From: Christiangramia lutea
Lineage (GTDB): Bacteria > Bacteroidota > Bacteroidia > Flavobacteriales > Flavobacteriaceae
Direction: 5' to 3'
Assembly (NCBI RefSeq): GCF_022489035.1
Contig: NZ_JAKVTV010000003.1
Span: 248,001-312,000, forward strand
Length of the DNA stretch: 64,000 bases
This document shows, in pieces, positions 49,904 through 52,028 of the stretch. The position numbers were made by a program, and so were the translations under genes. The notes beneath the pieces are model-generated. The model did not search any database. It worked only from the letters and a program-made list of their open reading frames with translations, and was not told where the DNA came from. The first letter of the stretch is position 1. The number at the start of each line of letters is the position of its first letter.

Positions 49904-50362
49904 ATGAAAATTGACGAGTTAGACAAGAGAATCCTCAAGCATCTTCAGCAGGATAGTAAAAAGACCAATAAGGAGATCTCCAACGATCTTGGGCTTTCAG
50001 TTACGGCAGTTTACGAACGCATAAGAAAACTGGAACGCGAAGGAATTATTTCTAAATACGTTGCCCTGGTAGAACCCCAAAAAGTTGAAAAATGTTTTAT
50101 GGTATTATGCCAGATCAAACTTGTGCAGCACAAAAAAGATTTTCTTTCCCGATTCGAAAAGGAGATCAATAACCTACCCGAGGTGATAGAATGTTTACAT
50201 GTAAGTGGAGATTTTGATTATATGCTTAAGGTACTGGTGAAAGATATGAATGCATACCGGGAATTCCTGGTCACCAAGCTTACCACGCTGGATCATATTG
50301 CGAGTACTAAAAGTATTTTCACGATCAATAAAGTGAAGCAAAGTACTTTTATTAGTCTGTAG
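49904..50362 (+). CDS. Lrp/AsnC-family regulator
   Basis: A 152-residue transcription factor with an N-terminal helix-turn-helix (LDKRILKHLQQDSKKTNKE, then LSVTAVYERIRKLEREG) and a C-terminal RAM domain that binds an effector amino acid (HVSGDFDYMLKVLV). It is divergent from the PLP-lyase gene, the usual arrangement for a specific Lrp-type regulator and its target, often methionine or branched-chain amino acids. The long A+T-rich gap between them offers binding sites that I cannot define by eye. Confidence 0.88.
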   Translation: MKIDELDKRILKHLQQDSKKTNKEISNDLGLSVTAVYERIRKLEREGIISKYVALVEPQKVEKCFMVLCQIKLVQHKKDFLSRFEKEINNLPEVIECLHVSGDFDYMLKVLVKDMNAYREFLVTKLTTLDHIASTKSIFTINKVKQSTFISL

Positions 50363-50425
50363 GTGAAAGTGAAAAGTGAAAATTTGTAAAAATGACTTTT
50401 TAAAGTACGCTAAAAATTTTAATTT

Positions 50426-50551
50426 CTGCTAACTGCTAACTGCTAACTGCTAACTGCTAACTGCTAACTGCTAACTGCTAACTGCTAACTGCTAACTGCT
50501 AACTGCTAACTGCTAACTGCTAACTGCTAACTGCTAACTGCTAACTGCTAA
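50426..50551. repeat. Perfect heptamer tandem array, 18 copies of CTGCTAA
   Basis: Exactly 126 bases consist of 18 uninterrupted copies of the seven-base unit CTGCTAA. Because seven is not a multiple of three and the unit contains TAA, every forward frame meets a stop within 21 bases; the reverse unit contains TAG with the same effect. It is therefore noncoding. It begins 63 bases after the Lrp stop and ends eight bases before the TTG of the likely lpdA promoter. Perfection indicates slippage, recent origin or maintenance. Confidence 0.95.
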
Positions 50552-50581
50552 TAGAGTATTGGTCATTGTAGAGAATAGTTG

Positions 50582-50589
50582 TACTTTTA
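50582..50589 (+). promoter_or_regulatory. Putative lpdA promoter
   Basis: TACTTTTA (one mismatch to TAnnTTTG) lies exactly 20 bases after a TTG at 50559-50561, a good Bacteroidota spacing. The -33 TTG starts eight bases after the heptamer array. A 35-base A-rich leader follows. Confidence 0.45.
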
Positions 50590-50624
50590 CGATCGATTTT
50601 TGAAAAACAAAAAAACACACAATT

Positions 50625-52028
50625 ATGAGTAAATATGATGTTGCAGTTATAGGATCAGGACCCGGTGGATATGTTGCCGCCATTCGTTGCGCCCAGCTGG
50701 GTATGAAAACTGCAATCATTGAAAAATATTCCACTCTTGGTGGAACCTGTCTTAACGTGGGATGTATCCCAAGTAAGGCACTTTTAGATTCTTCTCACCA
50801 TTATCATGATGCCATCAAGCATTTTGAAGACCATGGAATTGAAATTCCCGGGGAAGTAAAGCTGAATCTTGAAAAAATGATGGAACGTAAATCTTCTGTG
50901 GTAAGTCAGACTTGCGACGGAGTGAAGTTCCTGATGGATAAAAACAAAATTGATGTTTATGAAGGTCTTGGATCTTTTAAAGATAAGACTCACATCAATA
51001 TTGAAAAAGATGGTGAAACTCAGACCATCGAAGCGAAAAAAACCATTATTGCAACCGGGTCTAAGCCATCGAATCTTCCTTTTATCGAATTGGATAAAGA
51101 ACGAGTGATCACTTCAACAGAAGCTTTAAAGCTGAAAGAAGTTCCTAAACACATGATCGTAATTGGTGGTGGAGTTATTGGACTGGAACTTGGCCAGGTT
51201 TACCGTCGTCTTGGTGCTGAAGTGACTGTAGTAGAATTCCTTGATAGAATTATTCCAACGATGGATTCTGCACTTTCGAAAGAACTTCAGAAAGTATTAA
51301 AGAAGCAGGGAGTGAAATTCCATACCAGCACGAAAGTGAAATCGGTTAAAAGAAATGGAGATGAGATCATCATTAAGGCTGATGACAAAAAGGACAAAGA
51401 GATCGAGATCAAAGGTGATTACTGCCTGGTTTCTGTAGGTCGTCGTCCTTATACCGACGGATTGAATGCTGACGCTGCAGGAGTGAAGCTTGATGATAAA
51501 GGAAGAGTGGAAGTGAACGATCACCTTCAAACCAATGTGGATAATATTTACGCAATTGGTGATGTGGTTAGAGGAGCGATGCTTGCTCATAAAGCGGAAG
51601 AAGAAGGTTCTATGGTTGCTGAACTTATCGCAGGACAGAAACCTCATATCGATTACAATCTTATTCCTGGCGTGGTTTACACATGGCCTGAAGTTGCATC
51701 TGTTGGTAAAACCGAAGAGCAATTGAAGGAAGAAGGAGTGAAATATAAAGAAGGGAAATTCCCAATGCGCGCCCTTGGTCGTTCAAGAGCCAGTGGAGAT
51801 ATTGACGGACTTGTAAAGATCCTTGCAGATGAGAAGACCGATGAGGTTCTTGGAGTTCATATGATCGGTGCAAGAACGGCTGATCTTATTGCTGAAGCAG
51901 TTACCGCCATGGAATACAGGGCATCTGCTGAAGATATCGCCAGAATGTCTCATGCTCACCCAACTTATGCTGAAGCAGTTAAAGAAGCTGCTCTTGCTGC
52001 TACCGAGAATAGAGCTTTACATATTTAA
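50625..52028 (+). CDS. lpdA: Dihydrolipoyl dehydrogenase (E3)
   Basis: A 467-residue FAD enzyme that reoxidises dihydrolipoamide in the pyruvate, 2-oxoglutarate and branched-chain dehydrogenase complexes or the glycine cleavage system, using NAD+. FAD site GSGPGG is at about 10-15, redox pair Cys42 and Cys47 in GGTCLNVGC, NAD site GGGVIGLE in the middle and the catalytic His-Glu in HAHPTYAEA at the end. Length normal. No other complex subunit is adjacent, so the gene is a stand-alone E3, flanked by the heptamer array upstream and a terminator downstream. Confidence 0.96.
   Translation: MSKYDVAVIGSGPGGYVAAIRCAQLGMKTAIIEKYSTLGGTCLNVGCIPSKALLDSSHHYHDAIKHFEDHGIEIPGEVKLNLEKMMERKSSVVSQTCDGVKFLMDKNKIDVYEGLGSFKDKTHINIEKDGETQTIEAKKTIIATGSKPSNLPFIELDKERVITSTEALKLKEVPKHMIVIGGGVIGLELGQVYRRLGAEVTVVEFLDRIIPTMDSALSKELQKVLKKQGVKFHTSTKVKSVKRNGDEIIIKADDKKDKEIEIKGDYCLVSVGRRPYTDGLNADAAGVKLDDKGRVEVNDHLQTNVDNIYAIGDVVRGAMLAHKAEEEGSMVAELIAGQKPHIDYNLIPGVVYTWPEVASVGKTEEQLKEEGVKYKEGKFPMRALGRSRASGDIDGLVKILADEKTDEVLGVHMIGARTADLIAEAVTAMEYRASAEDIARMSHAHPTYAEAVKEAALAATENRALHI

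Follow-up and report, generated by a model that had tools for sequence, protein, structure and literature searches.

The run of 18 perfect CTGCTAA heptamers upstream of lpdA in this stretch of Christiangramia lutea DNA probably represents the right arm, variable through slippage, of a small composite repeat that is non-coding and occupies intergenic sites in this genus. The composite has a recognisable anatomy, recurs at unrelated loci and is missing from orthologous sites in sister species, and the heptamers of its right arm differ in copy number between species. At lpdA, both the heptamer unit and its copy number change from species to species beside an almost unchanged promoter. The features around the array in the window (the whole stretch of 64,000 nucleotides that was analysed) are the following:

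49904-50362, + strand: lrp, regulator of the Lrp/AsnC family (Pfam PF01037 and HTH domains; orthologues in the genus)
50363-50382, + strand: left heptamer tract, about 2.5 imperfect GTGAAAA units right after the lrp stop codon (from the sequence)
50372-50425, + strand: A/T-rich core of the dispersed composite (model R1 and PSSM)
50426-50551, + strand: (CTGCTAA)x18, read as the right heptamer arm (from the sequence)
50559-50588, + strand: lpdA promoter block, consisting of TTG, 20 nt and TACTTTT (conservation in 22 of 24 genus genomes)
50625-52028, + strand: lpdA, dihydrolipoyl dehydrogenase-type (Pfam PF07992, pyridine nucleotide-disulphide oxidoreductase, and PF02852)

The array and its setting beside the lpdA promoter

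The 126 bases from 50426 to 50551 consist of 18 CTGCTAA units without a single mismatch, exactly as the first-pass annotation had described them, and the period-7 run is bounded on both sides, with no further extension. The core overlaps part of the left tract, and its last base adjoins the array. Across the 64-kb window the array is the sole exact run with at least 12 matched positions at any period from 3 to 21, and three order-1 Markov surrogates of the window yielded no such runs. The search for further CTGCTAA arrays that had been proposed gave no second place with three or more units in a row in the 3.47-Mb genome. Related AACTGNNAACTG runs are present elsewhere in it, the foremost being TAACTGA with 18.6 copies at C1:117408-117537. 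We also observed CTGTTAA/CTGATAA heptamers in the rRNA spacer between 16S and 23S of G000 (C6:2294-2326, L176), directly before a tRNA (2332-2405). Regarding translation, the annotation had pointed to stop codons in all frames as a block to readthrough from lrp. TAA does occur in all three forward frames of the array, but the blocking role is redundant because lrp ends on its own TAG (50360-50362).

The genome is a draft in 31 contigs. In a comparison set of at least 115 stretches from other genomes that contain CTGCTAA arrays, the longest perfect run among the matches listed has 18 copies, and six of the nine listed runs of 16 or more copies lie at contig ends or beside N. Hence, the exact number of 18 may reflect a limit of assembly rather than the true count.

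The array ends at 50551 and the TTG occupies 50559-50561, which leaves seven bases between them and agrees with the eight-base step reported before. Of the 24 genomes examined from the genus (that of Christiangramia bathymodioli), 22 contain the promoter block TTGGTCATTGNAGAGAATAGTNGTACTTTT, each in a single copy when up to three mismatches are allowed, as expected for the well-spaced lpdA promoter that had been claimed, and a 467-aa lpdA-like frame lies downstream of it in all 22; it is missing in G010 and in G019 (73% complete). Mean majority identity is 0.93 at columns -4 to +29 vs 0.52 at -40 to -5, although the former is due in part to selection, since the alignment rows were chosen by the pattern with up to three mismatches. 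Conservation sets in one base before the TTG and is weak further upstream, with the array lying within the unconserved flank. Twenty bases separate the TTG from TACTTTT (50582-50588), which fits TAnnTTTG, given as the -7 box of the flavobacterial primary sigma factor in the excerpts of PMC9723704. A search for an E. coli-type promoter between 50200 and 50700 found none. TTG-N20-TACTTTT suits the flavobacterial primary sigma factor, and a promoter here is supported by conservation. The 20-nt spacer between the boxes (50562-50581) is conserved almost like the boxes themselves, which hints at an operator within it. In G010, where the gap from lrp to the lpdA ATG is 712 bp (L149), an apparent decayed copy of the block stands directly after lrp.

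Immediately upstream of the block, we counted 18 CTGCTAA units in G000, 13 in G009 and nine, followed by decayed units, in G003, while G012 carries 14 copies of CTGATAA. About two units are left in G007, G014 and G023, one in G021 and decayed units in G002; other heptamers occupy the site in G001 (CTTACAG-like) and G016 (ACGAACT-like), and G004 and G018 show two AACT motifs seven bases apart. In 11 of the 22 block-bearing genomes no array is evident, small arrays having been judged by eye and G020 being visible for 45 bases only. The whole lrp-lpdA spacer spans 107-109 bp in seven array-less genomes vs 268, measured to the ATG, in the window. In the lpdA tree, G009, G014 and G018 are grouped with support (99/97; forks are mostly weak outside this cluster), and they have 13, about two and no copies, respectively. 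Copy number therefore differs between related genomes at one and the same site, as in slippage-type simple sequence repeats. The proposal that the array is prone to slippage is borne out between species (18, 14, 13, 9, about two or no copies), and the suggested comparison of relatives reveals a number that is not constant across the genus. Because copy number varies between species and the promoter also occurs without the array, the latter is not a fixed part of the former. In the place of the left tract, G003 harbours a longer array, (GTGGAAA)n. In G009, with lrp about 10.7 kb distant, the end of the array keeps the eight-base step to the TTG seen in the window, so the array there stays on the promoter side. 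The lrp orthologue lies approximately 10.6-12.4 kb from the lpdA block in five genomes (G002, G004, G007, G009 and G018), and for this reason the lrp-lpdA spacer looks like an insertion site.

A composite element with a recurring core

The composite consists of GTGAAAA-like left heptamers, an A/T-rich core of 45-55 nt ending in AAATTTTWATTTT, and right heptamers of the CTGATAA/CTGCTAA type. Besides lpdA, it is found between prfA and pyrF, between yqeY and a tRNA, upstream of fabI and downstream of two further genes, one for an aldehyde dehydrogenase and one of Cys/Met metabolism. Seven cores, taken at pyrF, at fabI and at a third locus, served to build a model of the core (R1), from which all lpdA rows and all bases of the array were excluded. 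R1 matched the core of the window (50372-50425) with an E-value of 9e-9 within the window and 4.9e-7 genome-wide. In the 24 genus genomes it gave 13 matches with E<1e-6, namely the seven training rows and six others, three of which are at lpdA (G000, G003 and G023; E 2.9e-8 to 4.9e-7). All 13 lead straight into right-arm heptamers, the unit at the fabI locus of G007 being CTGAATA. The next match has an E-value of 0.0038, and G009 and G012, with long arrays at lpdA, gave no R1 match at E<=0.1. A PSSM built from six of the training cores (the seventh has a two-base insertion) gave the core of the window 44.1 bits, a value reached by none of 20000 dinucleotide shuffles, the best of which scored 14.8. 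Elsewhere, the maxima were 10.8 bits in the rest of the window, 13.8 in 400 kb of G017 and 16.0 when 400 kb of the own genome were scanned, this last match being the core beside the pyrF array.

Cores from different loci resemble each other more within a genome than between genomes (0.581 over 25 pairs vs 0.527 over 234; permutation p 0.027), an excess that depends on few pairs, since those at 1.0, 0.98, 0.89 and 0.87 drive it and 15 of the 25 are at or below 0.56. This likeness fits copying or conversion between sites, which it would be compatible with rather than prove as a route.

The prfA-pyrF spacer could be compared in 23 genomes. It measures 12-20 bp in six of them and contains the core and right arm in seven, with 18 right-arm copies in the own genome. 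In G002 the array is at a contig start, four genomes (G004, G008, G010 and G012) show other or decayed heptamers, and five have 92-106 bp without an array. In the divergent species G008 this spacer (L375) has the same anatomy built from other sequences, (AAGGTTT)n followed by a core of about 50 nt and (GATAATT)n. We tried this core as a candidate dispersed element, and apart from its self-match (E 7.1e-30) nothing in that genome fell below 0.264, so it is not dispersed there. Another shared sequence, REP-like and ending in CTCGCAATGA, was seen beside heptamers at L301 (G004), L314 and L320 (G021), and L217 (G002).

Distribution and the seven-base period

Among 249 genomes of the family, R1 matched one, the own genome. 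This search scored 23 candidates per genome under stricter filters, compared with 150 in the genus search, so weak copies of the core may be missed by it. R1 was also applied to 80 of the at least 115 listed CTGCTAA loci from the scan of other taxa (35 further loci were left out) and matched one of these 80 named loci, L090 of Christiangramia bathymodioli, which has the same lpdA region as G003 (2999 of 2999 31-mers). As far as searched, the composite is limited to this genus, whereas CTG-type heptamer arrays are spread more widely. The pattern AACTGNTAACTGNTAACTGNTAACTG matches 22 of 299 family genomes vs nine for the reversed control, and its NN form matches 11 of the 24 genus genomes vs none for the control. 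By record titles, exact CTGCTAA arrays occur among the matches listed in Cyanobacteria, Gammaproteobacteria, Chloroflexota and others.

The constant in these sequences is the period of seven bases, with units that differ. In 400 kb of G003 we detected 21 period-7 runs with many different units, vs 0-4 at other periods from 3 to 21 (the four being of period 14). The own genome shows a weak excess over 400 kb, with three period-7 runs vs 0-2 at other periods, and G017 has no period-7 run in 400 kb. Among the at least 115 listed stretches, 32 have a period-7 run upstream of the CTGCTAA array and ten have one downstream, at a distance of up to 200 bases, some of these runs being the same array continued with a changed unit; flanking runs of any other period from 4 to 12 number three at most. 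Dense clusters of varied period-7 runs, as if entire stretches were built from heptamers, were also seen in G003 at C1:22065-25430 and C1:69912-77006 (L279 and L281).

Mechanism, alternatives and known systems

Of the possibilities offered by the first-pass annotation, a neutral spacer or a lineage-wide repeat family has the strongest support, and we would add that the array forms one arm of a dispersed composite. In the mechanism that we favour, the arrays would grow, shrink and homogenise through replication slippage, and copies of the core would pass from one intergenic site to another, perhaps through recombination within the arrays on either side. The element would persist as filler of tolerant space that extends from a stop codon up to the feature that follows, be it a promoter, a start codon or a tRNA. 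We expect the effect of the array on lpdA to be small and the element to be close to neutral. Since about half of the species examined lack an array at the same promoter, an expandable filler is more likely than a switch.

The upstream gene is co-directional with the CTGATAA strand of the array in 23 of 23 composite rows, and so is the downstream gene in the 15 rows, from five gene pairs, in which both ORFs are resolved; at L312 the downstream ORF is opposite, but a co-directional tRNA lies in between. Co-direction in 15 of 15 rows is not required under pure neutrality and counts against a mere filler. It was discarded as a rule for CTGCTAA arrays in general, the 81 of the at least 115 stretches with both ORFs being divided into 21 ++, 25 --, 22 +- and 13 -+. 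One could imagine, tentatively and with low confidence, a new class of element in which slippage-prone heptamer ends would act as homology handles for copying or converting the core between intergenic sites along transcription, the unit being rewritten and the seven-base period kept.

One could also argue that the composite works as transcribed sequence, that is, as a weak terminator, an insulator or a processing site after the upstream gene, with its arms kept for that function. The co-directional neighbours would agree with this, as would the start of the element close to the upstream stop codon and the apparent hairpin with a T-rich tail (by eye) that stands instead in the prfA-pyrF spacer of G009, G014, G018 and G020, four of the five with 92-106 bp and no array. 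Weak A/T-rich arms of 15 nt, 80% matched, can also pair the left tract with the end of the core. On the other side, the region 50363-50558 folds no better than its shuffles (z -0.40), and the core has nine weak predicted pairs and no compensatory one. A simple scan of 50200-50700 gave no terminator, and Rfam gave no family at threshold. A sub-threshold Rfam match on the array itself (21.8 bits vs a gathering score of 110) was judged spurious. Given also the patchy presence of the composite at each locus, we regard a transcribed function as unlikely.

Quite improbable, in our judgement, is a phase-variable promoter, in which slippage would alter the number of copies among cells and tune lpdA by way of the sequence immediately preceding the -33 box. 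The array does sit directly upstream of the conserved TTG, at seven bases, and its copy number differs largely even between close species; against this, half of the genomes with the block have no evident array, the right arm likewise stands before pyrF, a tRNA and fabI, and columns -40 to -5 are poorly conserved. A purely local satellite, with each array born by slippage in place and the shared core due to chance A/T-rich composition, would suit the coreless heptamer arrays of other taxa (one R1 match in the 80 named loci among those listed) and the single-copy core of G008, yet it is very improbable in view of the held-out R1 matches at lpdA, the dinucleotide shuffles and the nearly identical cores found at separate loci in a single genome.

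With the same intergenic sites holding from none to 18 copies, exchangeable units and a promoter that is almost unchanged, the genus offers a natural series in which slippage, gene conversion and tolerance can be tested beside a central metabolic gene.

MITE/REP-type elements are short, dispersed, non-coding repeats at intergenic sites. The composite resembles them in being a short, non-coding intergenic repeat within one genus, with a sequence shared by unrelated loci and absent from orthologous sites, but its ends are variable heptamer arrays, with no clear terminal inverted repeat. The phase-variable promoter repeats of pathogens are perfect tandem arrays directly upstream of a promoter; in contrast to them, the array described here is missing in many species that have the same promoter.

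The over-representation of heptamers, slippage as its proposed cause and the TAACTGA arrays of Gramella forsetii have been published (PMC4679880, PMC4692102, PMC6749651). In Xanthomonas and Nostoc, GGGAATC and GGGGA(C/T)T heptamers are intergenic, are mostly flanked by the same gene pairs in two related species and vary strongly in length, for which polymerase slippage was proposed (PMC4692102). They share with our array the intergenic position, the seven-base unit and the variable length, but they are G-rich and quadruplex-forming, and the excerpts of that paper describe no composite core. On why bacterial tandem repeats favour seven-base units, a hypothesis concerning the DNA segment held by the polymerase is reported there (PMC4692102). 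The closest parallel is the work of MacGregor (2015; PMC4679880) on intergenic TAACTGA direct repeats, for which horizontal transfer, translational regulation and rearrangement were discussed. Like those, our array has a seven-base unit, is intergenic and runs forward to the downstream gene, although in the same register it reads TAACTGC, one base off. In G. forsetii, long sets of TAACTGA and other heptamers share the same spacers, and the spacer of a close relative is shorter and has no evident repeats (PMC4679880). The excerpts of that paper describe neither a core shared between two heptamer arms nor a copy-number series beside a conserved promoter, and searches of open-licence literature revealed no composite with a shared core. 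Heptamer arrays as such were already published (MacGregor 2015), and what is new here is the recognition of this array as the right-hand arm of a dispersed composite.
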